From Streptococcus constellatus subsp. constellatus (GTDB taxonomy: Bacteria; Bacillota; Bacilli; Lactobacillales; Streptococcaceae), in the NCBI RefSeq assembly GCF_023167545.1, contig NZ_AP014647.1, forward strand, positions 868,001-932,000: a DNA stretch of 64,000 nt, read 5' to 3'. The position numbers and the translations under genes are program-made. Below are positions 9,595 to 34,189 of the stretch, piece by piece. The number at the start of each line of letters is the position of its first letter. The stretch's first letter is position 1. A model generated the notes under the pieces. That model saw nothing but the letters and a program-made list of their open reading frames with translations. It searched no databases and was not told the DNA's origin.

Positions 9595-10638
9595 TTATAC
9601 CAACATTGAAATTGGGTCTTCAATCAGTTCTTTTAGGTCTTTCATGAATTTAGCACCTGCCATACCGTCCACGACTCGGTGGTCAATGGTTAATCCAAGA
9701 CTCATAATTGGTCGAATCACAATTTCTCCGTTTACTACGACTGGTTTTTCAATGGTTGAGCTAACTCCCAAAATCGCAGAGTTAGGCTGATTGATAATCG
9801 GGCCAAAGGATTGGACACCAAACATGCCCAGATTGCTGATGGTGAAGGTAGAATTTTGCAGCTCGCTCGGTGCCAGCTTGCCATCCAGGGTCCGGCCGAT
9901 GATATCCTTGAAGGCCACAACTAGCTCAGACAGACTCATCTTCTCAGCGTTGTAGACTACAGGTGTCATGAGACCATTATCCATACCGACAGCCATGGCC
10001 AGATTGACATAGTTGTGGGTGATGATGGTCTTGCCGTCCTCGGTCAGGGAGGAATTGAGATAAGGGTGCTTCATCAGGGTCTTAACCACAGCCAACGACA
10101 GCAAATCTGTGACCGTCACCTTCTTGCCGGTCGCTTCCATGATTGGATCTATAACCTTCTTGCGTAGGGCCAGCATTTCCGTCATATCCACATCATAGTT
10201 GAGGGTAAAGGTCGGCGCCGTCAGATAGGAATCCACCATCCGTTGGGCGATAACCTTGCGCATCGGTGTCATTGGAATACGCTCAATCTCACCGTAAGGC
10301 GTGATATTATCTGGTACTTCTTCAACCTTTTCAATAACAGCCGGCGACTTGATGCTGTCACTTTCGACATTTTCAGGCAGGAAGGCCAGGACATCCTTCT
10401 TCATAATCTTGCCGCGGTGCCCAGTTCCCTGAATCTCATTCCAGGCGATATTGTGCTCCTCGGCAATGCGCTTGGCCAGCGGTGAAATCCGAACCGCATG
10501 GGTATCTTGATAGGTTTCCACGTCTTCCTTGTGGACGCGACCGTTTGAGCCTGAACCGGAAACATCGTAAAGATTGATTCCCAGATCGTCTGCCAGCTTT
10601 CTAGCTGCAGGGGTCGCTCTTAATTTTTTGTCATCCAT
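9595..10638 (-). CDS. acoC: Dihydrolipoamide acyltransferase (E2) lacking a lipoyl domain
   Basis: Core acyltransferase of the complex. The protein starts directly with two peripheral subunit-binding modules (about residues 5-42 and 52-90, each ending in G-T/S-G...G-R-V/I-x-K-x-D-V), followed by the catalytic domain with the IDHRVVDGM active-site motif near the C-terminus. No lipoyl domain is present; it is carried by AcoL instead. I start at Met 10638 (MDDKKLRATP), which matches related proteins; an upstream in-frame Met at 10680 gives 14 extra residues and a poor match. The central part of the gene is visibly GC-richer than acoL and acoB. Confidence 0.93.
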   Translation of the reverse strand: MDDKKLRATPAARKLADDLGINLYDVSGSGSNGRVHKEDVETYQDTHAVRISPLAKRIAEEHNIAWNEIQGTGHRGKIMKKDVLAFLPENVESDSIKSPAVIEKVEEVPDNITPYGEIERIPMTPMRKVIAQRMVDSYLTAPTFTLNYDVDMTEMLALRKKVIDPIMEATGKKVTVTDLLSLAVVKTLMKHPYLNSSLTEDGKTIITHNYVNLAMAVGMDNGLMTPVVYNAEKMSLSELVVAFKDIIGRTLDGKLAPSELQNSTFTISNLGMFGVQSFGPIINQPNSAILGVSSTIEKPVVVNGEIVIRPIMSLGLTIDHRVVDGMAGAKFMKDLKELIEDPISMLV

Positions 10639-10793
10639 GATCTCTCTCATTCTTAAATAATTCATTGGTCGAGGCAACATTTGCCCTTATTTTTGTTTTT
10701 ATTCTAGTAATATTAGCAAAAATCAGATTTTTATTCTCAGTTATTTATACATAATTTAAATTACGTAAATGTTAATCATTGTTTATCTACACC

Positions 10794-11786
10794 TTACTCT
10801 TTATGATAAGTCTTACGGATAGTGTCTTTGATGGATTCTACTGTCGGAATCATGGCATTTTCAAGATTTTGAGCATAAGGCATCGGCACGTCTTCTCCAG
10901 CACAGCGACGAATCGGTGCATCCAGATAGTCAAAGGCTTCAGACTCAGATATAATAGCCGAAATTTCTCCGATATAGCCGCTGGTCTTATGGGCATCGTT
11001 GACCAGAACGACTTTTCCTGTTTTTTTAACTGAGTTAATAATAATATCTTTATCAAGTGGTACCAAGGTACGAGGATCGACTACTTCTACTGAAATGCCT
11101 TCTTCTGTCAATTCTTCAGCTGCTTGCATAACTCTGCGGAGCATTTTTCCATAAGTCACAACTGTTACGTCCATTCCTTCTTTTTTGATGTCACCAACAC
11201 CGAGAGGGATTGTATAATCAGGGTCAAGTGGAACTTCGCCTTTTTGGTTGAATTCTGATTTATACTCAAGGATAATAACAGGATTGTTGTCGCGAATTGA
11301 AGATTTCAACAATCCCTTCATATCTGCGGGAGTTCCAGGTGCTACGACTTTGAGACCGGGAATATGGGTAAACCAAGATTCTAAAGATTGCGAGTGTTGA
11401 GCAGCTGATCCGACACCATTTCCAGCTGCGCAACGAATTGTTAGCGGAACTTGTCCTTTACCACCAAACATATAACGTGTTTTAGCAGCCTGGTTGACAA
11501 TCGCATCCATGGCAATGACAGAAAAGTCCATGAAAGTCATATCTACAATAGGACGAAGGCCTGTCATGGCAGCTCCTGCTGCAGCTCCTGAAATAGCTGC
11601 TTCAGAAATTGGACAATCACGTACTCGTTCTGGACCGAATTCTTCTAACATTCCGACGGATGTTCCGAAATCTCCTCCGAAAATGCCGACATCTTCTCCC
11701 ATTAACAACACATTTTCATCAAGACGCATTTCCTCAGACATGGCAAGGATAATGGTGTCACGGAAAGACATTGTTTTTGTTTCCAT
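10794..11786 (-). CDS. acoB: Pyruvate/acetoin dehydrogenase E1 beta subunit
   Basis: Beta chain of the thiamine-diphosphate dependent decarboxylase E1. 330 aa with the transketolase pyrimidine-binding domain (MGEDVGIFGG near residue 28, ISEAAISGAAAGAA) and the C-terminal transketolase domain with DPRTLVPLD. GGAG precedes the ATG. It lies 20 bp after acoA and about 155 bp before acoC; no terminator is visible in that gap. It pairs with acoA to form the alpha2beta2 E1. Confidence 0.96.
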   Translation of the reverse strand: METKTMSFRDTIILAMSEEMRLDENVLLMGEDVGIFGGDFGTSVGMLEEFGPERVRDCPISEAAISGAAAGAAMTGLRPIVDMTFMDFSVIAMDAIVNQAAKTRYMFGGKGQVPLTIRCAAGNGVGSAAQHSQSLESWFTHIPGLKVVAPGTPADMKGLLKSSIRDNNPVIILEYKSEFNQKGEVPLDPDYTIPLGVGDIKKEGMDVTVVTYGKMLRRVMQAAEELTEEGISVEVVDPRTLVPLDKDIIINSVKKTGKVVLVNDAHKTSGYIGEISAIISESEAFDYLDAPIRRCAGEDVPMPYAQNLENAMIPTVESIKDTIRKTYHKE

Positions 11787-11806
11787 TATTGTTCAATCTC
11801 CTCTCT

Positions 11807-12775
11807 TTAATCTGCATAAATATCTTCAAAAGCTGATTCAAGCGGTGGGAATGGACTTTCTGCCGCGAATTTTACAGATGCTTCTACTGCTTCTTTAACC
11901 TCTGCTTGAATAGCCTCTAACTCTTCATCGCTTGCAATCTGATTTGCGAGTAAATATTTACGAAGATTTTCGATTGGATCTTTTTTCTTCCATTCTTCTA
12001 CTTCTTCACGAGTACGGTATTTACCTGGGTCAGAAGATGAATGTCCCAACCAACGATAGGTCACACTCTCAATTAAGACAGGTCCTTTACCACTGCGAAC
12101 ATGCTCTACAGCTTTTTGGAAACCTTCATAGACATCCAAAACATTATTGCCATCTTCGATGAACATACCTGGAACGCCATAAGCTGCGCTGCGCTCGTGA
12201 ATATGCTCTATATTGGTCATTTTCTTAATATCCGCAGAAATACCATAGCCATTATTGATACAATAGAAAATCACTGGCAAATTCCAAATAGAGGCCATAT
12301 TAACCGCTTCATGAAAAACACCTTCGTTCGTTGCTCCGTCACCAAAGAAACAGACAACGATCTTTCCTGTATGATGCATTTGCTGAGTAAGGGCTGCACC
12401 GACTGCGATTCCTATACCTCCGCCAACAATACCATTTGCTCCTAAATTTCCAGCATCCAAATCAGCAATGTGCATGGAGCCACCTTTTCCTTTGCAGGTT
12501 CCATTGTATTTGCCCATGATTTCTGCCATCATGCCATTCAGGTCAATTCCTTTAGCAATCGCCTGACCATGCCCACGATGGTTAGATGTAATCAAATCAT
12601 CAGGATTGAGGGCCAACATAGCTCCAACGCTTGCTGCTTCTTCTCCAACTGAAAAGTGAGTCATACCTGGAACTTTCCCCTTTTTCACGAGTTGAGCAAT
12701 TTTTAGGTCCATCCGACGAATTTCTTCCATCTTCCGAAACATCTCTAACAAGAGATTTTTATCTAACATTGCCAT
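11807..12775 (-). CDS. acoA: Pyruvate/acetoin dehydrogenase E1 alpha subunit
   Basis: Alpha chain of E1 that binds thiamine diphosphate. About 322 aa, with HRGHGQAIAKG and the ThDP/Mg motif GDGATNEGVFHEAVN...INNGYGIS. The start at 12775 is set by AGAAAGG eight bases upstream; the longer frame to 12811 runs into the promoter. First gene of acoA-acoB-acoC-acoL-lplA. By homology in streptococci the operon may serve as pyruvate dehydrogenase rather than for acetoin; the sequence alone does not decide between the two. Confidence 0.95.
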   Translation of the reverse strand: MAMLDKNLLLEMFRKMEEIRRMDLKIAQLVKKGKVPGMTHFSVGEEAASVGAMLALNPDDLITSNHRGHGQAIAKGIDLNGMMAEIMGKYNGTCKGKGGSMHIADLDAGNLGANGIVGGGIGIAVGAALTQQMHHTGKIVVCFFGDGATNEGVFHEAVNMASIWNLPVIFYCINNGYGISADIKKMTNIEHIHERSAAYGVPGMFIEDGNNVLDVYEGFQKAVEHVRSGKGPVLIESVTYRWLGHSSSDPGKYRTREEVEEWKKKDPIENLRKYLLANQIASDEELEAIQAEVKEAVEASVKFAAESPFPPLESAFEDIYAD

Positions 12776-23512: not shown

Positions 23513-23540
23513 TAAAAAAAGCCTTTCAAAAATAAAAGGC
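23513..23540 (-). terminator. Terminator of the acyl-CoA cluster's downstream unit
   Basis: GCCTTT (23521-23526) pairs with AAAGGC (23535-23540), with a T run on the minus strand. It sits just after the metallo-hydrolase gene. Confidence 0.8.
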
Positions 23541-23552
23541 GATTTTTAAATT

Positions 23553-24470
23553 TTAATGATATAAAGCAGGTTTTCTATCTTGCTTATCGGTAAATAGAAG
23601 TCTTGGTTCACGAATCCGCTTTACATAATCAACAATTTCTTTTCCTTCATGGTCAAATTCTGCAACAGCAAAAAATTGATCATGATAAAAGAAAAATTTA
23701 TAATGATTTTCAAATGCTTCCTTGAGCCATTTTTCTTTTGCAATAATAGAACGCATAGGATAGTCATCTACAGCAGCAACCCAAACAGGCTTACGATGCG
23801 CGTGGGTTAAGAGCAAATCTGCCATATGGATCATCGTTTCCTTTCCCTGTTTCAGTAAAATAATACTATGACCATTGCTATGCCCGCCAGTATGAACTAG
23901 TTGAATTTCTGGAATGATATTTAAATATTCAGTGAATGTCTCGACTTGATGCTGAATCGGCTCCCAATTTTCTCTGAGATAGGTTCCTCGCGTTCGATTG
24001 TTTGGATTCATCATTTCATACCATTCAATATCATTGACAAAAATCTTAGCCTTGGGAAAGGTTGAAACCAATTGATTGTTTTCATCTAATTTCGTTAAAC
24101 CGCCAGAGTGATCGTGGTGCATGTGAGTCATCAACACATGAGAAATATCTTTTGGTGTCAACCCTAAGGTTTCTAAGCTTTCCTCAATTCTGCTTTCGGA
24201 TAAAATTCCTAGATTTCGTCTCTGTTTATCCGAAAGTTTAGCAGTATTAAAACTTGCATCAATTAAATAGTTTTTGTCCTTGTATTGAATCAATATGGGA
24301 TCTGTCAATTCAACCATCATATTTTCTTTAGTTGTTGGATAATAGCGTGACCAAACAACTTTTGGTACAGGGCCAAAGAGAGTGCCTGCATCCGTCATTT
24401 TATCAGCACCACGTAACCAAATTAGTTTCATGTCTCCAAATTGATATTCTTGTAGAGTGAGTTTTGCCAT
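23553..24470 (-). CDS. Metallo-beta-lactamase fold hydrolase (YtnP/lactonase-like)
   Basis: 305 aa. Zinc ligands are clear: THMHHDHSGG (~115-124), the later His in HTGGHSNGHS (~194) and Asp in HMADLLLTHAH. The long N-terminal part before the HxHxDH box is typical of the YtnP/AHL-lactonase branch. The substrate is not known; a lactone or thioester would fit the position beside acyl-CoA genes (inference). It is only 3 bp after the acyl-CoA dehydrogenase-like gene, so the two are co-transcribed. Confidence 0.83.
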   Translation of the reverse strand: MAKLTLQEYQFGDMKLIWLRGADKMTDAGTLFGPVPKVVWSRYYPTTKENMMVELTDPILIQYKDKNYLIDASFNTAKLSDKQRRNLGILSESRIEESLETLGLTPKDISHVLMTHMHHDHSGGLTKLDENNQLVSTFPKAKIFVNDIEWYEMMNPNNRTRGTYLRENWEPIQHQVETFTEYLNIIPEIQLVHTGGHSNGHSIILLKQGKETMIHMADLLLTHAHRKPVWVAAVDDYPMRSIIAKEKWLKEAFENHYKFFFYHDQFFAVAEFDHEGKEIVDYVKRIREPRLLFTDKQDRKPALYH

Positions 24471-24473
24471 TTC

Positions 24474-25586
24474 TTACTCCTTTAGCCATCTTTCAGCAAT
24501 TTCTCGTCTAATAGAATTTCCAGACCTACCATAATTTTCAATAATCTCAGCATCCTTTAAGTAACGTCTGATATTAATTTTATCAAATTTTTGAAAAGGC
24601 CCGATAAGTCTAATAATTTCATCGGATATTTCAATTGCAACTTTAGTTGTGTATAATTTTATGCGAGAAACAAATTTTGCGTCTTCTTCTATCTGACTAG
24701 GATAGGAGTCAAAATAAGCTTCTGCCGAGCATAGTTTATTATACAAATCAGCAAACTTATGTTGGTGAACCTCGACATCAATCAAGCGCTTACCAAATTC
24801 TCTTTTCACTTTTGCAAATTCAAGTCCTTTCTTAAAAGCTCCCTCAGCAATCCCTAACGCAATAGCACTTAAACCAAGTTGCATATTCTTGATAATGTTA
24901 GCAAATTGTACATCTCCAAGCAATTCACCTCCCAGTAAAGCATGTTTTGGGAGTAAGACATTTTCTAAAGTAACTGAACTCAAAGGGAGACCGATTAACC
25001 CTGGCTTTTCAATTTGTTCACCAATCAGAACATCTGAATCATTCGGATCGACAATAAAGAGTCCGTACGTCTCTTCCTTACTTTGTTCTTTTACTTTTGC
25101 CAAAATTAATAATATATCTGCAACACTGCTATTAGAAATCATGGCTTTTTTCCCTGATAGATACCAGCCCTGCTCAGTTTTTGTTGCATAGGTTTCTAGG
25201 TCTTCCAGTCCATTTAAGTGCTTATATTCACAAAATCCCAGCCCTGCTATGCAGTTGCCTTTCAGTAATTTTTCAAGATATAACTCCTTTTGCTCTGCTG
25301 TCCCAAAATTTAAAATAGAATAGATGCCATAGCAGCCTTGGGTTAATAAAATAGCTGAAAGAGCAGCAAATTCATTAGCAATTTTTCGGATAAATGTGAT
25401 GAAATCAGAGCTCAATGTATGATTTTTTTCAGATAAAATGGGCGAAAATATCTTCATATCATTCGCTAAATTATCCCATATCTCTCTTGGGAAATCATTT
25501 GACTCATCATATTCTCTTACATAGTTTCTAATTGCTGTATTTACATATGAATCAAGCATTGTTGCTGTAGTGCTATTTTTTGACAT
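24474..25586 (-). CDS. Acyl-CoA dehydrogenase-like protein without the usual catalytic Glu
   Basis: 370 aa with the all-alpha/beta/all-alpha layout of the family: the flavin-binding region around GLGFCEYKHLNG (~117), WYLSGKKAMISNSSVADI, and the C-terminal KREFGKRLIDVEVHQHKFADL. In normal enzymes a segment like YEGTSEI carries or sits near the base; here the same place reads ENYGRSGNSIRREIA. The catalytic Glu therefore appears to be missing or displaced, so the reaction may be non-standard or the protein non-catalytic. It lies between the LysR regulator and the metallo-hydrolase. Confidence 0.78.
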   Translation of the reverse strand: MSKNSTTATMLDSYVNTAIRNYVREYDESNDFPREIWDNLANDMKIFSPILSEKNHTLSSDFITFIRKIANEFAALSAILLTQGCYGIYSILNFGTAEQKELYLEKLLKGNCIAGLGFCEYKHLNGLEDLETYATKTEQGWYLSGKKAMISNSSVADILLILAKVKEQSKEETYGLFIVDPNDSDVLIGEQIEKPGLIGLPLSSVTLENVLLPKHALLGGELLGDVQFANIIKNMQLGLSAIALGIAEGAFKKGLEFAKVKREFGKRLIDVEVHQHKFADLYNKLCSAEAYFDSYPSQIEEDAKFVSRIKLYTTKVAIEISDEIIRLIGPFQKFDKINIRRYLKDAEIIENYGRSGNSIRREIAERWLKE

Positions 25587-25608
25587 TGATTCTCTCCTTT
25601 ATTAAGTA

Positions 25609-26517
25609 TCAAGGCTCTGAAATAGGCTGATAATAATCTTTTAAAAGTTCTTCATAAACATATGCTTCAACTTCGTTATAATTTGTTTTATAAGGTCTGC
25701 AGAACCAAATATTAAATGGTATCGGATCTTTAAAACGGACAACTTTAAATTTATCTTTATCTACAAAGTACTCTACTGGACGAGGTAAAATAGCAATCAT
25801 ATCGTTCTCATACGTGGACTCTGTTAAAAAGTCCCACGTTGATGATAAATAGGTAAAATTCGTTTTTATTTTTTTGTTTTTTAATTTCTCTGTTATCAAT
25901 TCATAAGTGGTAAATGATTTATTAAAGGTTGCCAAATCATAAGCAGCGATGTCTTTCCATTCTAAAAATTCTTTATCCGCTAAAGGATGATTTTTGTCCA
26001 TGTAAGCCGCATATTCATCGACTTGGATAATATATTGCTCATATTTTTTTGTATCCAAACTAGTTGGTTCAATCAATAAAACAAAATTCAAATCGCCTTC
26101 GATAAATTTTTGACGTAAATCCTTGCTTCCACCTTCTACAACTTGAATATTGATGTGTGGATTATCCTTTAAAAATTTGGGGAGCACACTGGCAAAGTAA
26201 ACGCGTAAAATCAAAGAAGGAATACCTAAACTAATGGTACCTTTTTGTTTCTGGGCTTCTCTATGAATCATGGACTGCATTTCTTCGTAACGATTAACAA
26301 TTTCAGTTGCAAAACGATAAATTTTCCCACCAGCTTCTGTCAGACTTTCTAGCCTTCCGTTTCTACGATTAAAAAGCTGAAGTCCTTCAGCGGTTTCGAA
26401 ATTTGTGACAAATTGACTCAAAGCAGATTGACTAATATGAATTTTTTTAGCAGCAATTGAAAGATTACATCCACATTCAACGATATTAATAAAATACGTC
26501 ATTTGAATAATATCCAT
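25609..26517 (-). CDS. LysR-family transcriptional regulator
   Basis: 302 aa. N-terminal winged helix with LSIAAKKIHISQSALSQF (~18-35), then a periplasmic-binding-like effector domain. Upstream on the minus strand are a TTGACA at 26558-26563 and a weak -10. It is 22 bp before the dehydrogenase-like gene and so probably co-transcribed with it and the hydrolase. By position it is the natural candidate regulator of the acyl-CoA cluster, responding to a small acid or CoA ester (inference). Confidence 0.9.
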   Translation of the reverse strand: MDIIQMTYFINIVECGCNLSIAAKKIHISQSALSQFVTNFETAEGLQLFNRRNGRLESLTEAGGKIYRFATEIVNRYEEMQSMIHREAQKQKGTISLGIPSLILRVYFASVLPKFLKDNPHINIQVVEGGSKDLRQKFIEGDLNFVLLIEPTSLDTKKYEQYIIQVDEYAAYMDKNHPLADKEFLEWKDIAAYDLATFNKSFTTYELITEKLKNKKIKTNFTYLSSTWDFLTESTYENDMIAILPRPVEYFVDKDKFKVVRFKDPIPFNIWFCRPYKTNYNEVEAYVYEELLKDYYQPISEP

Positions 26518-26571
26518 GTTCGTCGTCTCCTATCTTCAATATTTTTGTGATGTAATTTGTCAAGAATAAAA

Positions 26572-26610
26572 TAGCAACCAATCATTTTGAATACAGATGA
26601 TTAGTTGCTA
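26572..26610 (-). terminator. Terminator after the CoA-transferase genes
   Basis: 14-bp arms (26572-26585 and 26597-26610) with one mismatch, between the CoA-transferase beta gene and lysR. Confidence 0.75.
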
Positions 26611-26707
26611 ATAGTTCGATTAAAAACTTATCATCGATAAAGTTCTTTATAAGCATATAGTAACACATTTTATAGCAAACAGTAGTTCTATTTGCTTGAT
26701 ATTTTAA

Positions 26708-27361
26708 CTAGATAGACATTGTTTTTAAATCTTCCGACACAATTACGTCACCAGCTGTTTTTTCAAGGACTTCTTCCAGAGTGACGCCGGGTGCTAATTC
26801 TTTTAGCAGGAATTTACCATCTTGAAAGCCAAATACCGCTAGTTCTGTGATGACTAAATCCAAAACTCCTTTAGCTGATAGAGGCAATGTGCACTCTTTC
26901 AGCAATTTTGACTGTCCATCAACAGTTGTATGTTGGATGGCAGCGATAACTTTTTTAGCACCAACGAGAAGATCCATAGCCCCTCCCATTCCTGGCGCGA
27001 ATTTGTCAGGAATAATCCAGTTTGCAATACTGCCATCTTGGCTGACTTCTAGCGCTCCTAAAACTGTCGCATCAACATGACCTCCACGAATAATAGCGAA
27101 AGAAGTTTGAAGATCAAATAAAGACGCTCCTGGTAAAAGAGTAATGGGGGCTCCACCAGAGTTGGCCAGATTCGCATTGTAGTTTTCTTTTGTCGGTGTC
27201 TCACCAAAACGAAGTGCCCCATTTTCTGCTTGAAGAATCACATTCACACCTTCAGGAATGTAATCAGCAGAAGCGTTCGGAATCCCAAAACCAAGGTTGA
27301 TGACATCTCCATCCTTAAATTCAAGTGCGATACGTCTTGCAATAATTTCTTTTGGTTTCAT
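26708..27361 (-). CDS. 3-oxoacid/butyrate-acetoacetate CoA-transferase, subunit B
   Basis: 217 aa beta subunit of a family I CoA-transferase (AtoA/ScoB type), moving CoA between short acyl-CoAs and free acids. The catalytic Glu is in LQAENGALRFGE (~51), and GGHVDATVLGALEV and KFAPGMGGAMDLV-like segments follow. One base separates it from the alpha gene, as in classic two-subunit enzymes. Substrate preference (acetate, butyrate, acetoacetate) cannot be read. Confidence 0.92.
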   Translation of the reverse strand: MKPKEIIARRIALEFKDGDVINLGFGIPNASADYIPEGVNVILQAENGALRFGETPTKENYNANLANSGGAPITLLPGASLFDLQTSFAIIRGGHVDATVLGALEVSQDGSIANWIIPDKFAPGMGGAMDLLVGAKKVIAAIQHTTVDGQSKLLKECTLPLSAKGVLDLVITELAVFGFQDGKFLLKELAPGVTLEEVLEKTAGDVIVSEDLKTMSI

Positions 27362-27362
27362 A

Positions 27363-28085
27363 TTACACTACCCCTGCAAATTTTTTTGTCTCCGTCCAGA
27401 GGTCCCCCATCATTTCATGATGTTCTTCAGCAGTCAAACTTTTAACAACATAATCTACAAGGATTCCTGGAATGTATATATCGTTGGGATCGATTTCACC
27501 AACTTCAACAATGTCATTAGTTTCGACAATGACTGTATCAGCTGCAAGCGCTAGCTGCAATGAAATATTTTTAGTTGTACCGTCAATATATAAATTACCA
27601 TATTTGTCTGACTTGGTAGCTTTAATCAAAGCAACATCGATTTTCAAAGGATCATAAACCAGATATTCTCTGCCATTACGGACTACTTTTTCATAGTCAT
27701 TTTCCAAAATAGTACCTACACCAGTAGGAGTCAAGACAGCTCCTAAACCGGCTCCAGCAGCGTGAAGTCGTTCCACCACAGTTCCCATTGGTGTGAACTC
27801 AACTTCCATATCACCGCTAAAATATTCATGTTGCACTGCTGCAGAAGTTCCCACATGAGCAGCGATGTATTTTTTTACTTGGTGGTTTTCGCATAAACGA
27901 CCAACACCAACTTCTTTACCGGGTTGTGAAGTCACCACCGATACTATTGTTAAGTTTTGTTGATTTTGTCGAATCAGCTCTTCAATGAGTTCAAATGGTT
28001 CACCTACCCCAAGAAAGCCTGAGATGCCAACCATATCGCCAGATTTAATCTTAGAAATTGCTTCTGGTAATGTTACAATGTGCAT
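27363..28085 (-). CDS. 3-oxoacid/butyrate-acetoacetate CoA-transferase, subunit A
   Basis: 240 aa alpha subunit (AtoD/ScoA-like). The N-terminal SGDMVGISGFLGVGEP is the CoA-binding glycine-rich loop; SDKYGNLYIDG and EVGEIDPNDIYIPG are family signatures. It sits between the crotonase gene (17 bp) and the beta subunit, in one operon. Confidence 0.9.
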   Translation of the reverse strand: MHIVTLPEAISKIKSGDMVGISGFLGVGEPFELIEELIRQNQQNLTIVSVVTSQPGKEVGVGRLCENHQVKKYIAAHVGTSAAVQHEYFSGDMEVEFTPMGTVVERLHAAGAGLGAVLTPTGVGTILENDYEKVVRNGREYLVYDPLKIDVALIKATKSDKYGNLYIDGTTKNISLQLALAADTVIVETNDIVEVGEIDPNDIYIPGILVDYVVKSLTAEEHHEMMGDLWTETKKFAGVV

Positions 28086-28102
28086 ACCACTACCTCCACC
28101 TA

Positions 28103-28882
28103 CTATTTGCGATTAAAAACAGCTTTGCGCTTTTCTACAAAAGCATGCATCCCTTCTACTTTATCCTCTGTAGAGAACAACAATGCTTCTGCTTCAGTTT
28201 CGAGCCTAATAGCATTTTTAAGTGGAAGTTCTGAGCCAACCTGAATAACATGTTTAGCTTTCTCTACTGCTAACGGTGCATTCTTCATAATTGCAGCAGC
28301 CAATTCTTCAGCTGAAGTTAACAGTTCTTCAGCTGAAACCAACTTGTTAAGAATTCCTAGTTCGTAGGCTTCTTGACCTTTCACTGTACGAGCAGTGAAA
28401 ATCAATTCTTTCGTACGGCTTGTTCCAATCAAACGAGACATACGTTGAGTACCAGCGAATCCCGGAATAATGCCCAAGCCAACTTCTGGAAAGCCAACAA
28501 CTGTCTTTTCAAATCCAATACGGATATCTGTCGAAAGTGCTAATTCCATTCCTCCTCCAAGTGCATACCCATTGAGCACTGCAATTGTTGGTTGACGTAA
28601 GTCAGAAAGTCGAGTAAAAGTATTGTTTGCAAATGTCATATATTCAAAAGCTTGAATTGGCGACATCACGTCCATTTCTTTAATATCAGCTCCAGCTACA
28701 AATGCCTTTTCTCCTACCCCTGTTACAATCACAACACGGATTTCTTCACTTTGTTCAACTTGATCAAGAACATCATTCAGATCAGTTAATACTTGAGAAC
28801 TCAAAGCATTTAATGCTTCAGGACGATTAATCGTAATGTAGCCGATGCTGTTTTTTACTTCTAGTAAAACAGTTTTACTCAT
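28103..28882 (-). CDS. Enoyl-CoA hydratase (crotonase family)
   Basis: 259 aa, hydrates trans-2-enoyl-CoA such as crotonyl-CoA. The oxyanion-hole segments are AFVAGADIKEM (~61-71) and ALGGGMELALSTD (~104-116); the acidic residue pair is in GFPEVGLGIIPGFAGTQRM. The length and motifs fit short-chain crotonase. It heads the hydratase/CoA-transferase unit, separated by a terminator from the thiolase unit upstream. Confidence 0.93.
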   Translation of the reverse strand: MSKTVLLEVKNSIGYITINRPEALNALSSQVLTDLNDVLDQVEQSEEIRVVIVTGVGEKAFVAGADIKEMDVMSPIQAFEYMTFANNTFTRLSDLRQPTIAVLNGYALGGGMELALSTDIRIGFEKTVVGFPEVGLGIIPGFAGTQRMSRLIGTSRTKELIFTARTVKGQEAYELGILNKLVSAEELLTSAEELAAAIMKNAPLAVEKAKHVIQVGSELPLKNAIRLETEAEALLFSTEDKVEGMHAFVEKRKAVFNRK

Positions 28883-28924
28883 TTTAATGCTCCTACTTAT
28901 AAAATTTGAAATATTAAGTACAGT

Positions 28925-28937
28925 GTCAACAAATACT
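28925..28937. promoter_or_regulatory. 13-bp motif shared with the acyl-CoA dehydrogenase promoter
   Basis: GTCAACAAATACT occurs here on the plus strand and on the minus strand at 32579-32591, with further similarity (GA.CC) beyond one end. Both sites lie upstream of acyl-CoA operons, so this is an operator candidate. The minus strand here also reads TTGACA, which may be the -35 of the hydratase operon. Confidence 0.45.
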
Positions 28938-29007
28938 TGAACCCAAAATGTAAGAGCTTACAATGCTATGATATCCCATTTTTCCATTCTCGTCTACTTA
29001 ATCTTAA

Positions 29008-29044
29008 TTTATAACTCTATAAGTTTAACTTATAGAGTTATAAA
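29008..29044. promoter_or_regulatory. 37-bp perfect palindrome upstream of the hydratase operon
   Basis: The sequence is perfectly symmetrical around 29026 (arms TTTATAACTCTATAAG.. in both directions). It lies 126 bp upstream of the hydratase start and downstream of the thiolase terminator. There is no T run on the minus strand, so it looks more like an operator or cruciform than a terminator. Confidence 0.6.
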
Positions 29045-29073
29045 AAATACTAAGACTTTTTGATTTTCAAAAT

Positions 29074-29131
29074 AAAAAAACAAATTCTACTAAGAATCAT
29101 TTAACATAAACGTCTTAGATGGAATTTGTTT
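29074..29131 (-). terminator. Terminator of the dehydrogenase-HBD-thiolase operon
   Basis: AAACAAATTC (29078-29087) pairs with GAATTTGTTT (29122-29131) and CTAAGA with TCTTAG inside it; seven Ts follow on the minus strand. Confidence 0.82.
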
Positions 29132-29181
29132 TACAGAGTAAAAAAATCAAATGGTAAATTAAATTTAGTAGGTAATTATTT

Positions 29182-30360
29182 TTAACGTTCTACAATAACT
29201 GCTGTGCCCATTCCTCCTCCGATACAAAGAGTTGCAAGACCACGTTTAGCATCGCGTTTTTCCATTTCATGCAACAAAGTAACTAGAATACGGCAGCCTG
29301 ATGCTCCAATTGGATGACCAAGTGCAATGGCACCACCGTTTACGTTTACTTTTTCCGGATCAAGATTTAACTCCTTACCAACAGCACATGCTTGCGATGC
29401 AAATGCTTCATTGGATTCAATCAAATCAAGATCTTCAGTTGTAAAGCCACCTTTTTCAAGTGCTTTACGAGAAGCATAAATTGGTCCGCAACCCATGATT
29501 TTCGGATCTAATCCTGCACTTGCATAGGATTTTATGGTTGCTAAAACAGGAATGCCTAGCTCTTTCGCTTTTTCTGAACTCATGACAACAACTGCTGCCG
29601 CTCCATCGTTGATACCAGAAGCATTACCAGCTGTGACCGTTCCGCCTTCTTTAAAGACAGGGCGTAATTTAGCCAAACCTTCTAGTGAGGCATCTTTTCT
29701 TGGAAATTCATCCGTATCAAAAACAATTGGCTCACCTTTTCTCTGTGGAATAATCACTGGAACGATTTCTTCTTTGAAACGTCCAGCTTCAATAGCTGCC
29801 ACAGCACGTTGTTGTGACTGAACAGCAAAAGCATCTTGGACTTCACGAGAAATATCATACTGTTCAGCAACATTTTCAGCTGTGATTCCCATATGGAAAT
29901 CACCAAAAGCGTCAGTCAGACCGTCGCGTAACATAGTGTCAATCACTTTTGTATCTCCCATACGAGAGCCCCAACGCTGACCTTGAAGAACGTATGGTGC
30001 CTGACTCATATTTTCTGCACCACCTGCTACAATAATATCTGCATCTCCACATAAAATTGCTTGGGCAGCTAATTGAACTGTTTTCAGTCCTGAACCACAT
30101 ACCTTATTCACTGTAAAGGCTGGAGAAGAGACTGGAATACCCGCATTGACACTCATTTGACGTGCTACATTTTGCCCTAGTCCTGCTGCCAACACATTTC
30201 CCATAATCACTTCATCAATTTGTTCTGCTTTCAAATGTGCTCGTTCAATCGCACTTTTAATAACCAAACTTCCCAAATCAACAGCTGAAATATTTTTCAA
30301 ACTTCCACCAAAAGAACCTAATGGTGTACGAACTGCTGATACAATCACTGCTTCTTTCAT
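29182..30360 (-). CDS. Acetyl-CoA C-acetyltransferase (thiolase)
   Basis: 392 aa biosynthetic-type thiolase that interconverts two acetyl-CoA and acetoacetyl-CoA. The acyl-carrying Cys88 is in [11 protein letters not shown], His in [14 protein letters not shown], and the second Cys in [11 protein letters not shown]. The start is preceded by AAGGAGCAAG. It is 17 bp after the 3-hydroxyacyl-CoA dehydrogenase gene. Confidence 0.96.
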
Positions 30361-30377
30361 TTCTTGCTCCTTATATC

Positions 30378-31226
30378 TTAATATTTAAAGAAACCTTCCT
30401 TTGTCTTACGACCCAGTTTACCAGCTTCAACCATTTTTTTCAACAATGGAGCAGGACGATATTTTGGATCACCAAATCCATTATTCAATACACCCATAAT
30501 AGCTAAGCAAACATCCAAACCAATCAAATCAGCTAAAGCCAATGGTCCAATAGGATGGTTAGCACCGAGTTTCATAGCTTCATCAATTTCTTCAGCTGTT
30601 GCAACCCCTTCTCCGAGAATGAAAATCGCTTCATTAATCATCGGAATCAACACACGGTTCACCACAAAACCATAAGAATCTTTAACACCAACTGCTGTTT
30701 TACCGATTTTTTCAGTTAATTCACGAACAGCTTTAACGACTTCTTCTGACGTTTGAAGTGCTTTGATTACTTCGACCAATTTCATAACAGGAGCAGGATT
30801 AAAGAAGTGCATTCCAATGACTCGTTCTTGATGTACTGTTGCTGCAGCAATATCTGTGATAGACAAAGATGAGGTATTTGAAGCTAAAATAGTTTCTGGA
30901 GATGTCAATTCATCTAATTGTTTAAAAATACTCAACTTAATATCTCTATTTTCAGTAGCTGCTTCAATAACTAACTGAACATTTTTAGCATCCTCATATG
31001 AAGTTGATGGAATCAGCTTACTCAAAATACTATTTTTATCATCTTCTGAAAGACGACCTTTTTCAACGGAGCGTGTTAGTTGCTTAGTGATATTTCCGAT
31101 GCCTCTTTCAACGAATTCTTCTTTAATATCATTCAAATACACCGTAAAGCCTGATTGCGCAAAAACTTGAGCAATACCACTTCCCATTTGACCTGATCCA
31201 ATGATCATTACGTTTGAAATATTCAA
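30378..31226 (-). CDS. 3-hydroxybutyryl-CoA dehydrogenase
   Basis: 282 aa, NAD(P)-dependent, interconverts acetoacetyl-CoA and 3-hydroxybutyryl-CoA. N-terminal Rossmann motif [14 protein letters not shown], catalytic His/Glu context in [16 protein letters not shown] and the C-terminal [19 protein letters not shown]. The length is that of the short single-function enzyme. Middle gene of the three-gene operon. Confidence 0.95.
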
Positions 31227-31272
31227 TTTTTTCTCCTATCTAGTACGTTACAAAATTTAAAGCGAAAGAATA

Positions 31273-31308
31273 GGAACGATTGAATGATATACACCCCTCA
31301 ATCGCTCC
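31273..31308 (-). other. Stem-loop between the dehydrogenase and HBD genes
   Basis: In the minus-strand RNA an 11-bp stem (GGAGCGAUUGA with UCAAUCGUUCC, one G-U) lies in the 91-bp gap. There is no U run after it. Processing signal, partial terminator or mRNA stabiliser are possible. Confidence 0.4.
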
Positions 31309-31317
31309 TTTTCGTCA

Positions 31318-32526
31318 TTATACAAATGCACCTAAGCCAGTGATTTCACGACCAACAATCAAAGCGTTGACTTCATGAGAACCTTCATAAGTGTAAACTG
31401 CCTCAGCGTCTGCAAAGAAGCGTGCAACGTCTGTTTCAAGAGTAATTCCATCGCCTCCACATGTTTCACGAGCAAGAGCCACCGTTTCACGCATGACAAG
31501 TGAATTGTGCATTTTAGCAAGAGCAGAATTTAACATCAATTCATTACCCGCTTCTTGCATTTCAGCGATACGAACTGAATAAGCGATTGCTGCCACAGCG
31601 TTTGCTTGCATTCTAGCCAATTTTTCTTGAATAATTTGGAATTTAGCAATAGGACGTTTGAATTGTTGACGATTTGTAGCGTATTTCAAGGCTGCATTAA
31701 ATGATCCGCAAGTTATCCCCATAGCGATATGAGCCACATCAGCACGAGTAAATGTAAGAATACGAGCTACATCTGCAAATCCATTGATATTTACTAAACG
31801 GTCTGAATCTGGAACTTCAACATTTGTCATGGTAATATGACCATTTCGAACACACCGAAGTGCAATTTTATGTTGGATGACTTCTACATCGTAACCAGGA
31901 GCTCCCTTACGAACGATAAAGCATTTAACCTTACCATCCGCAACATCGCGAGCAAATACTGGGATAATATCTGCTGTATCTGAACCACCAATCCAACGTT
32001 TTTCACCATTAAGAATCCATTTATCTCCAACACGTTCAGCAGTTGTTGCGAGTCCACCTGCAATGTCTGAACCCGAAAGTGGCTCTGTCAAAGCAAAACA
32101 TCCTTGCCAATCAAATGCTGCTAATTTAGGAAGAAATTCTTTTTGTTGGCGTTCATCACCACCGAGCAAGATTGTATTATAGCAAAGTCCGCCATGAACA
32201 GTATAGAATGTAGCCATTGATGTATCAAAACGAGCCAATTCCAAGTAAAGGAATGCGATATAAAGTTCTGATGGTTTGTAGCTGCCTTCACGTCCCTCAA
32301 ACAATTTAGGATTGTTCATAATTTGTGCACCCTTGGCAACTGTGTAAAATTGTTCAAATGGAAAATCAGGTTTTTCCCAATGTTCATTGATAACAGGACG
32401 AAGATGTTTTTCAATCAAACGACGAGTTTCTTGCAAAACTTCTGCTTCTCCTAATGTCAAACCATCTGCATAATGGAAAAGATCTTCAGGATATAGTTCA
32501 CGTAAAATTTCTTCTTTGGTTGCCAT
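31318..32526 (-). CDS. Acyl-CoA dehydrogenase (glutaryl-CoA dehydrogenase-like)
   Basis: FAD flavoprotein of about 402 aa. FAD-binding motif FALTEPLSGSDIAGG, WIGGSDTADI, and catalytic Glu in TYEGSHEVNALIVGREITG, a C-terminus typical of the glutaryl-CoA/ACOX4-like branch rather than butyryl-CoA dehydrogenase. AGGAG eight bases upstream sets the start at 32526; the longer frame to 32568 begins inside a cre-like site. First gene of the dehydrogenase-HBD-thiolase operon. No electron-transfer flavoprotein genes are nearby. Confidence 0.9.
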   Translation of the reverse strand: MATKEEILRELYPEDLFHYADGLTLGEAEVLQETRRLIEKHLRPVINEHWEKPDFPFEQFYTVAKGAQIMNNPKLFEGREGSYKPSELYIAFLYLELARFDTSMATFYTVHGGLCYNTILLGGDERQQKEFLPKLAAFDWQGCFALTEPLSGSDIAGGLATTAERVGDKWILNGEKRWIGGSDTADIIPVFARDVADGKVKCFIVRKGAPGYDVEVIQHKIALRCVRNGHITMTNVEVPDSDRLVNINGFADVARILTFTRADVAHIAMGITCGSFNAALKYATNRQQFKRPIAKFQIIQEKLARMQANAVAAIAYSVRIAEMQEAGNELMLNSALAKMHNSLVMRETVALARETCGGDGITLETDVARFFADAEAVYTYEGSHEVNALIVGREITGLGAFV

Positions 32527-32553
32527 AGTATGGACTCCTTTGTAATAGTATGA

Positions 32554-32568
32554 TAAGAGCGCTTTCAT
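32554..32568 (-). promoter_or_regulatory. cre-like site 1 (CcpA)
   Basis: Minus strand ATGAAAGCGCTCTTA, 14 of 15 with the cre consensus WTGNAANCGNWNNCW. It is 28 bp upstream of the dehydrogenase start, where it would block transcription. Confidence 0.65.
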
Positions 32569-32578
32569 TTTAAGGCTC

Positions 32579-32591
32579 AGTATTTGTTGAC
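32579..32591 (-). promoter_or_regulatory. Second copy of the shared 13-bp motif
   Basis: The minus strand reads GTCAACAAATACT, identical to 28925-28937 but in the opposite orientation relative to the genes. It overlaps cre-like site 2. Confidence 0.45.
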
Positions 32592-32599
32592 GCTTTCAT
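32585..32599 (-). promoter_or_regulatory. cre-like site 2 (CcpA)
   Basis: Minus strand ATGAAAGCGTCAACA, 14 of 15 with the cre consensus, 31 bp (about three helical turns) from site 1. Confidence 0.6.
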
Positions 32600-32740
32600 T
32601 TTATATCGAACACGCTATAATGTCTACTTAAGATAAATTAAACTTCCCATAAGCTAGTGTTATACATGCTGATTTTAGTGGATTTTCAAAGGTTAAAATC
32701 TAAATTTTCCAAATAAAAAAATTTTCAGATTCTAAAAATT

Positions 32741-32776: not shown

Positions 32777-32842
32777 CCACTACATGTAGCGGCCAGATCA
32801 ATTTTACGGAGCAAAATACAGGCAATTTCAGAATAGATGTGC

Positions 32843-32848
32843 TACAAT
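32843..32848 (+). promoter_or_regulatory. Extended -10 of the flavoenzyme gene
   Basis: TGC-TACAAT 25 bp before the start; the -35 is weak. Confidence 0.5.
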
Positions 32849-32872
32849 ATTTGTAAAAAACGGAGGAAAATC

Positions 32873-34189
32873 ATGTTAATATATGATCTAATTGTCATTG
32901 GTTTTGGTAAAGCTGGAAAAACATTAGCAGCCAAAATGGCAATGCAAGGAAAAAAGGTTGCTTTGATTGAACGCAGTAAAGCTATGTACGGCGGAACTTG
33001 CATCAATATCGCTTGTATTCCAACCAAAACCTTACTAGTAGCTGCAGAAAAAGGATTATCTTTTGAAGAAGTAATGACTGAGAAAAATGCGGTTACTAGC
33101 AGACTCAATGGGAAAAATTACGCAACTATTAGTGGTGCTGGAGTCGATATTATTGATGCAGAAGCTCATTTTCTATCCAATAAGGTAATTGAAATTGTCT
33201 CAGGTAACCAAAAACAAGAATTAACAGCTGAAAATATCGTCATCAATACAGGTGCTATCTCTAACATTCTACCAATCCCAGGACTTACTACATCAAAAAA
33301 TGTTTATGATTCAACAGGTATTCAAAACCTTGATAGACTACCTAAAAGTCTTGGAATTCTTGGCGGTGGGAATATCGGTCTTGAATTTGCTGGTTTGTTC
33401 AATAAATTAGGAAGCAAGGTCACTGTTCTTGATGCTGCCGATACCTTTCTACCACGTGTAGAACCTTCTATCGCTGCCATGGCCAAACAATACATGGAAG
33501 AAGATGGCATTGAAATTCTTCAAAATGTCTTTACTCAAGAAGTTAAAAATGATGGTGACGAGGTGATTGTCGTTACTAAAAATAAAAGTTTTCATTTTGA
33601 TGCGTTGCTTTATGCTACCGGTCGCAAGCCAAATATTGAACCATTAAAGCTAGAAAATACAGATATTCAAATAACAGATCGTGGTGCTATCCAAGTTGAT
33701 AAGCATTGTCAAACTAGTGTTTCTGGCGTTTTTGCTGTTGGAGATGTCAACGGTGGATTGCAATTCACCTATGTCTCATTAGATGATTTCCGTATAGTTT
33801 TTAGTTATTTAGCAGGTGACGGCTCATACACACTTGATGATCGTAAAAATGTACCGACTACCATGTTCATCGCTCCACCACTCGCTCAAATTGGTCTAAC
33901 TGAAGCACAAGCTAAAGAACAAGGATTGCCTTATGCAACTAAAGAAATTCCAGTTTCAGCTATGCCACGTGGACATGTCAATGCTGACCTCAGAGGAGCA
34001 TTCAAAGCAGTTGTAAACACAGAAACTAAAGAAATTCTTGGCGCTACTATCTTCTCACAAGGAGCTCAAGAAATTATTAACATTCTAACTGTAGCTATGG
34101 ACAACAACATACCATATACTTATTTCACAAAACAAATCTTTACTCATCCAACCCTAGCTGAAAACCTTAACGACTTGTTTGCGATTTAG
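32873..34189 (+). CDS. RclA/Har-type flavin disulfide reductase (probable hypothiocyanous acid reductase)
   Basis: About 438 aa pyridine nucleotide-disulfide oxidoreductase. FAD motif IVIGFGKAGKTLA, redox pair C43/C48 in GGTCINIACIPTK, NAD(P) motif LGGGNIGLEFAG, FAD-binding AVGDVNGG and the C-terminal dimer domain with IFTHPTLAENL. The overall pattern is the RclA group, whose streptococcal member Har detoxifies hypothiocyanous acid; that function here is an inference. CGGAGG fixes the ATG at 32873. The residue between the two active-site cysteines is Ala where I would expect Gly. Confidence 0.85.
   Translation: MLIYDLIVIGFGKAGKTLAAKMAMQGKKVALIERSKAMYGGTCINIACIPTKTLLVAAEKGLSFEEVMTEKNAVTSRLNGKNYATISGAGVDIIDAEAHFLSNKVIEIVSGNQKQELTAENIVINTGAISNILPIPGLTTSKNVYDSTGIQNLDRLPKSLGILGGGNIGLEFAGLFNKLGSKVTVLDAADTFLPRVEPSIAAMAKQYMEEDGIEILQNVFTQEVKNDGDEVIVVTKNKSFHFDALLYATGRKPNIEPLKLENTDIQITDRGAIQVDKHCQTSVSGVFAVGDVNGGLQFTYVSLDDFRIVFSYLAGDGSYTLDDRKNVPTTMFIAPPLAQIGLTEAQAKEQGLPYATKEIPVSAMPRGHVNADLRGAFKAVVNTETKEILGATIFSQGAQEIINILTVAMDNNIPYTYFTKQIFTHPTLAENLNDLFAI

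Follow-up and report, generated by a model that had tools for sequence, protein, structure and literature searches.

Can a fermentative streptococcus gain acetyl-CoA from short acids, and what would take up the electrons if it does? The question is raised by a run of acyl-CoA genes in a 64,000-nucleotide stretch of Streptococcus constellatus subsp. constellatus (contig NZ_AP014647.1, positions 868001-932000 of a 1.90-Mb one-contig genome; hereafter the window). Nine intact, full-length open reading frames stand there in one operon-like run on the minus strand (23553-32526), transcribed in the order fadE, hbd, thl, cro, ctfA, ctfB, lysR, ACAD2 (for a second protein of the acyl-CoA dehydrogenase, or ACAD, fold) and a gene for a YtnP-like hydrolase. 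The breakdown of fatty acids is generally assumed to be missing from fermentative streptococci. We propose, at a probability of about 0.62, that the operon, repressed by glucose and acid-inducible, is a module for the beta-oxidation of short-chain monocarboxylic acids that is primed by a CoA-transferase and uses O2 as electron acceptor.

In the cycle as we propose it, with steps assigned by enzyme family, a short acid would enter the cell and be primed by the AtoDA-like transferase CtfAB through CoA exchange with acetyl-CoA. FadE, as an ACX4-type flavoenzyme, would convert the acyl-CoA to the enoyl-CoA and pass the electrons directly to O2, giving H2O2; crotonase and the 3-hydroxybutyryl-CoA dehydrogenase Hbd would then produce the 3-keto ester and NADH, and thiolase would release acetyl-CoA. 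Butyrate would thus yield two acetyl-CoA, one of them repaying the priming. From acetyl-CoA the pathway common in streptococci can then form acetate and ATP.

FadE and the fate of its electrons

The first gene, fadE (31318-32526, minus strand), encodes a 402-residue protein of the acyl-CoA dehydrogenase/oxidase family. A preliminary description of the locus, made from the letters of the sequence, had placed its start at 32568; we correct this to 32526, because the ATG there is preceded by AAAGGAG and aligns with the start in 19 of 19 compared Streptococcus loci, and because in S. anginosus a TAA interrupts the longer frame. The protein lies above the NCBIfam cut-off for staphylococcal FadE (664 bits against 600), and six further FadE proteins of the class (L051, L066, L073 and L076-L078) are likewise above the NCBIfam FadE cut-off. 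The best sequence match in the PDB is Arabidopsis ACX4, a short-chain acyl-CoA oxidase of the peroxisome (2ix5, 289 bits), followed by a putative glutaryl-CoA dehydrogenase of Thermus (228 bits), and an AlphaFold model of FadE (pLDDT 88.8) ranks 2ix5 first in Foldseek, at 37% identity. An identity as glutaryl-CoA dehydrogenase was weighed for the family kinship and rejected, as FadE is without the Thr pair of 2eba and 3sf6.

The catalytic glutamate, Glu381 in the corrected numbering, is found in every aligned row of the FadE family within TYEGS, TYEGT or SYEGT. Two other positions bear on the choice between dehydrogenase and oxidase: Gly180, in the motif K-R-W-I-G at the gatekeeper position of the flavin N5, and Asn228, which aligns with Asn255 of ACX4. 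In a study of methylsuccinyl-CoA dehydrogenase, the single substitution T317G was enough for significant oxidase activity, W315F/T317G/E377N gave more, N377 of the engineered enzyme was likened to Asn255 of ACX4, and an N-terminal loop of the ACX4-type oxidase was said to block other acceptors (PMC6017585). When 137 ACAD-like frames were aligned, the Gly+Asn pair was present in 77 of 77 FadE-family rows (49 after collapsing identical rows; 29 groups at 95% identity). It was present in none of the 43 distinct ACAD frames (45 rows, 21 genomes) from genomes that bear an electron-transfer flavoprotein (ETF), a set drawn from 30 loci of a longer match list, which have Thr or Ser at both positions. 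The remaining 15 rows, which are ACAD2-like, have Ser or Ala, and Leu, Val or Ile, at the two positions.

The host genome gave no match to the ETF domain (PF01012), in a search in which 10 of 14 controls were positive, so some acceptor other than ETF is needed here. Within the genus, ETF was searched in 147 genomes and found in two (G026 and G036), neither of them among the 18 of these genomes that carry FadE. In those two genomes a distant ACAD (27-30% identity to FadE) lies directly beside the ETF genes, on contig 21 of G026 and contig 2 of G036. For the class, assumed to be Bacilli, a survey of 348 genomes in which FadE was called at E 1e-70 and the lists were compared by eye and by handle found FadE in 20, ETF in 249 and the two together in none (Fisher p 2.7e-12, uncorrected for kinship).

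A UbiA-family (menaquinone) prenyltransferase was also without a match in the host genome, with 14 of 14 controls positive, which argues against home-made menaquinone as the electron sink; quinone reduction, which has been suggested for E. coli, was set aside for FadE on this result. In a search for AMP-binding proteins the sole one found in the genome was DltA, and hence no FadD acyl-CoA synthetase was found in operon or genome. This makes the CoA-transferase a plausible activator of the acid.

Regulatory sequences of the operon

A promoter-like sequence of fadE, TAGACA-17-TAAAAT (32598-32626, minus strand), comes from a consensus scan that overall returned 46 sites against 37 in shuffles. 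Its -35 element is overlapped by a putative LysR operator, CTTAT-N17-TTAAGTAGA (32623-32653, minus strand), which is also present in relatives, and an exact second copy with the same spacing lies upstream of the crotonase gene (28993-29023, minus strand). The 1.9-Mb genome holds these two exact copies, none with one mismatch and 29 with two, while the reversed pattern, used as a control, has 62 matches within two mismatches over the whole genome. Two exact copies occur in 14 of the 19 Streptococcus loci and one in five (L005, L013, L017, L019 and L020); in five further streptococcal loci, described below, there are two copies in three and one copy in two. The putative operator most likely belongs to the operon's own LysR-type protein (25609-26517, minus strand; PF00126 and PF03466 above cut-off), which would probably control two transcription units through the repeated site.

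Two sequences resembling the catabolite-responsive element (cre), both copies of ATGAAAGCG on the minus strand, lie close to the same promoter. The first (32584-32599) overlaps the end of the -10 element and occupies the corresponding position in some of the loci; the second (32553-32568) contains the ATG once taken for the start of fadE. Of 38 sequences (the window and 37 loci), 30 have a loose cre pattern ahead of fadE, a count that has no chance rate behind it; the pattern is not found there in L021-L023, L067, L069 and L073-L075. Taken with an operator of which the genome holds no more than two exact copies, the cre-like sites suggest that this is a catabolic regulon, and an operon repressed by glucose would fit breakdown better than butyrate fermentation.

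Relatives of FadE outside the Bacilli

Outside the Bacilli the search covered plasmid records only. Of these, 34 held a relative and 19 loci were read, 17 of them from outside the class; two Burkholderia matches were left unread. The Gly+Asn pair is present in 16 of the 19, including S. aureus and Aerococcus tenax, whereas two (Brevibacterium and Kocuria) have Gly+Gln and one (Halalkalicoccus) has Thr+Ser. Among the carriers outside the Bacilli are Rhizobium, Bradyrhizobium, Paraburkholderia, Streptomyces, Deinococcus, Arthrobacter and others. The pair is therefore the mark of a broad ACX4-like clade and does not depend on the loss of ETF; a reading in which it goes with ETF-less genomes was dropped for this reason, and the case for an oxidase now rests on residues and ancestry.

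When five of the plasmid-record proteins were scanned, the S. aureus one alone was above the NCBIfam FadE cut-off. Its locus (L110; NZ_CP077891.1, 16712-27908) holds a five-gene fad cluster in fadXDEBA order, on a 39.9-kb linear record that is labelled a plasmid and may be a piece of chromosome.

Points that weigh against O2 as acceptor and against glucose repression

Several observations count against the reading that we prefer. The oxidase activity of FadE is a prediction, and the protein retains the tryptophan that was changed to phenylalanine in the engineered oxidase. The Gly+Asn pair occurs in 14 of the 17 relatives outside the Bacilli, and genera such as Rhizobium, Bradyrhizobium, Streptomyces and Deinococcus have ETF. 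Within the class, the FadE genomes lie in five families and the absence of ETF tracks family lines, so that the zero overlap between FadE and ETF amounts to few independent events. Quinones imported from outside may serve as the acceptor, and streptococci, being without catalase, would have to tolerate the H2O2 formed. As to repression by glucose, the single match to the strict cre pattern in the window lies away from the fadE promoter, where, by hand comparison, each of the two sites misses it by one mismatch. Lastly, the part of a report available to us indicates that E. coli FadE may likewise work without ETF (PMC11495604).

Conservation and distribution of the operon

The 147 genomes mentioned above belong to a sample of 284 from Streptococcus, and in this larger sample FadE is found in 42 (E 1e-60 for both counts, the window's own genome included), which bears out the earlier doubt that the pathway is standard in streptococci. 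All nine genes stand in identical order in 18 of the 19 compared loci, and L005 retains the first three only, six being lost. In the BLAST results Hbd comes as two pieces in L005 and in L019, as does thiolase in L015. The downstream neighbours rbgA-rnhB are common to 8 of the 19 loci. Against S. anginosus J4206 (L003), the ratio of nonsynonymous to synonymous divergence (dN/dS) is 0.030-0.082 across all nine, and the flanking rbgA has 0.070. The cluster is being maintained as a unit, and its distribution is patchy. The synonymous divergence (dS) from J4206 is 0.08 for the crotonase gene and 0.35-0.90 for the other genes of the operon, a disparity that points to a probable recent recombination of the crotonase gene.

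The closest named relative of FadE is that of J4206, at 97% identity, and judged by such matches the host is closest to S. anginosus, so that the label of lactic streptococcus once given to it, in the sense of a dairy type, is unsupported. A divergent flavoprotein gene (32837-34189) adjoins fadE; it is akin to hypothiocyanous-acid reductase, below the cut-off of that model, and is seen in L003 alone among 22 compared loci.

Five further streptococcal loci (L064, L065, L068, L071 and L072) have the same gene order with an extra gene of 396-433 residues between thl and cro. The copies read, from L064, L065 and L072, look like one family of the major facilitator superfamily (MFS), and that of L064 is above the NCBIfam cut-off for an L-lactate MFS transporter. 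In the window this position is a gap of about 300 bp (28883-29181), which holds the second operator copy and an 18-nt perfect inverted repeat (29008-29044). Upstream of fadE, at 10413-11858 of the locus, L064 encodes an enoyl reductase that is FabK-like (419 bits, cut-off 453) next to a hydratase of MaoC/PhaJ-like type, and L065 and L068 have similarly sized genes at the same position. A different FadE cluster is found in three other Streptococcus loci (L066, L067 and L070) and in L074, from another family of the order. There, the FadD of L067 is above the cut-off for staphylococcal FadD, L066 and L070 have AMP-ligase-like genes, and the CoA-transferase of L066 has butyryl-CoA:acetate CoA-transferase as its best model, far below cut-off.

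The remaining genes

Family scans name each gene as the preliminary description did, and all of those it listed are present at full length on the minus strand with strong family matches. Hbd (30378-31226) is above the cut-off of NF004474 and matches PDB 4r1n and similar structures. The thiolase, an acetyl-CoA C-acetyltransferase (29182-30360), is above the cut-off of TIGR01930 and aligns end to end with 4n44. Crotonase, a short-chain enoyl-CoA hydratase (28103-28882), is above the cut-off of PF00378 and matches 5z7r, and its best model, NF004475, scores 302 against a cut-off of 394 and thus falls below it. Both CoA-transferase subunits, A (27363-28085; AtoD/ScoA-like, TIGR02429) and B (26708-27361; AtoA/ScoB-like, TIGR02428), are above their cut-offs, and B matches the acetate CoA-transferase 5dbn. 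Alignments with solved enzymes cover the active-site blocks of thiolase, crotonase, Hbd and CoA-transferase B, as judged by the residues that we take to be catalytic. A terminator-like stem-loop with a T run lies 3' of the last gene (23521-23540, minus strand), from a consensus scan that overall gave 6 sites against 7.0 in shuffles.

ACAD2 (24474-25586, minus strand) is the gene earlier called a degenerate dehydrogenase, aptly in that the protein is without the catalytic Glu. Pfam assigns it to the ACAD family, and its predicted model (pLDDT 82.6) has ACADs as top structural matches. Glycine replaces the glutamate in all 26 sequences aligned, from the window and 25 of 28 loci scanned; ACAD2 was not found in L005, L022 and L023. 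Nor does any of the 26 have a Glu in the 16-residue stretch that matches what we take to be the alternative-base position of isovaleryl-CoA dehydrogenase. Identity is 50-55% to the copies of L004, L008-L010, L012, L013, L017, L019, L020 and L024, and dN/dS rises from 0.070 against L003 to 0.240 against the more distant L017. By these measures ACAD2 is constrained, yet evolving faster than its neighbours. It could partner FadE structurally, as in a heteromer of the two, or could work in some other chemistry. In L064 ACAD2 is divided between two frames.

The last gene (23553-24470, minus strand) encodes a hydrolase of the metallo-beta-lactamase fold. Its best NCBIfam model is the equivalog for the YtnP quorum-quenching lactonases (NF047919), at 362.4 bits against a cut-off of 425, and its best PDB match is 3esh; a link of this candidate to lactones is possible.

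Alternative explanations

The alternative that fares best, though we hold it to be doubtful, changes the substrate. Instead of a plain short-chain fatty acid, the operon would serve acetoacetate, 3-hydroxybutyrate or a hydroxy acid derived from a lactone, which the YtnP-like hydrolase would open and ACAD2 would process, and the core cycle would finish the chain. The AtoDA-like transferase fits such substrates, and 18 of 19 loci retain the hydrolase and ACAD2 as part of the operon, under selection. On ketone bodies, however, FadE would have nothing to do, although its gene is the first of the operon, and we know of no function for an ACAD without its base in an operon of this kind. A change of substrate is compatible with FadE being an oxidase.

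A second alternative, less probable again, keeps the oxidative cycle and hands the electrons of FadE to an unrecognised protein or small-molecule acceptor, the Gly/Asn pair being an inherited trait of the clade. Ancestry alone could indeed explain a pair that is invariant in the Bacilli family and present in 16 of 19 plasmid-record loci, and the flavoproteins of the host were only partly surveyed. The missing ETF and UbiA-family matches argue the other way, as does the fact that the nearest relative of solved structure is an oxidase.

The preliminary description saw a complete cycle that could lead from acetyl-CoA to butyryl-CoA or break down short acids, and left direction and substrate open. 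Synthesis of butyrate through butyryl-CoA, as in clostridia, would suit the scores of thiolase, Hbd and crotonase, which are best against short-chain models or against structures of acetyl-CoA acetyltransferase or 3-hydroxybutyryl-CoA dehydrogenase that we take to be clostridial. We nevertheless regard it as quite unlikely, because no ETF was found in the host, FadE has oxidase-type residues and cre-like sites lie in the promoter; clostridia need EtfAB for the crotonyl/butyryl step of their route. In a search for a Ter-type enoyl-CoA reductase (PF07055) none of the controls was positive, so that it says nothing on the host. Breakdown is thus much the more likely of the two, and the direction can now be argued to be oxidative, while the substrate is one that we infer. 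That the operon is a functionless remnant in decay, as the base-less and fastest-diverging ACAD2 (dN/dS 0.240 against L017) and the six genes gone from L005 could suggest, is highly improbable given the dN/dS of 0.030-0.082 for all nine genes against L003 and the conserved promoter elements.

Relation to known systems and significance

The clostridial butyrate cluster, thl-crt-bcd-etfBA-hbd, has a thiolase, crotonase and Hbd of similar types, but the present host has no ETF domain match and its FadE is unlike ETF-linked ACADs at two positions. With ACX4, its closest solved relative in sequence and fold, the streptococcal FadE shares the catalytic Glu and the equivalents of WIG and Asn255; it differs in being bacterial, only 37% identical and encoded in an operon, and its oxidase activity is predicted.

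The fadXDEBA operon of Staphylococcus is alike in that its FadE is above the cut-off of the same NCBIfam family and, in S. aureus, carries the Gly/Asn pair. The streptococcal operon differs from it in having no FadD, a separate Hbd and crotonase, a two-subunit CoA-transferase, and a LysR gene, ACAD2 and hydrolase of its own. According to the available parts of two reports, S. aureus fadXDEBA is under CcpA repression (PMC12369327), and a full S. aureus beta-oxidation cycle was recently shown, though solely in a strain from which two intergenic regions had been removed (PMC13170264). The terms "oxidase" and "electron transfer" are absent from the main texts of both, and other papers may hold them. 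Judged by titles and the beginnings of abstracts, the literature on streptococcal beta-oxidation yielded no paper on this operon, and a search on acyl-CoA oxidases in Firmicutes found no paper.

What is known here is the FadE gene family, through staphylococcal FadE; what is new is the suggestion that its clade may consist of oxidases. From residues and kinship, we lean slightly towards the view that the whole FadE clade, with S. aureus FadE and numerous relatives from other phyla among its members, consists of ACX4-type oxidases, and that streptococci, staphylococci and their relatives would have a peroxisome-like, ETF-free beta-oxidation. If so, the whole clade would be oxidases that are now annotated as dehydrogenases, and an electron acceptor could be named for the beta-oxidation of S. 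aureus. For the streptococci, acetyl-CoA would be gained from short acids only under oxygen and with release of H2O2, and such O2-dependent use of acids would matter for oral and abscess communities.

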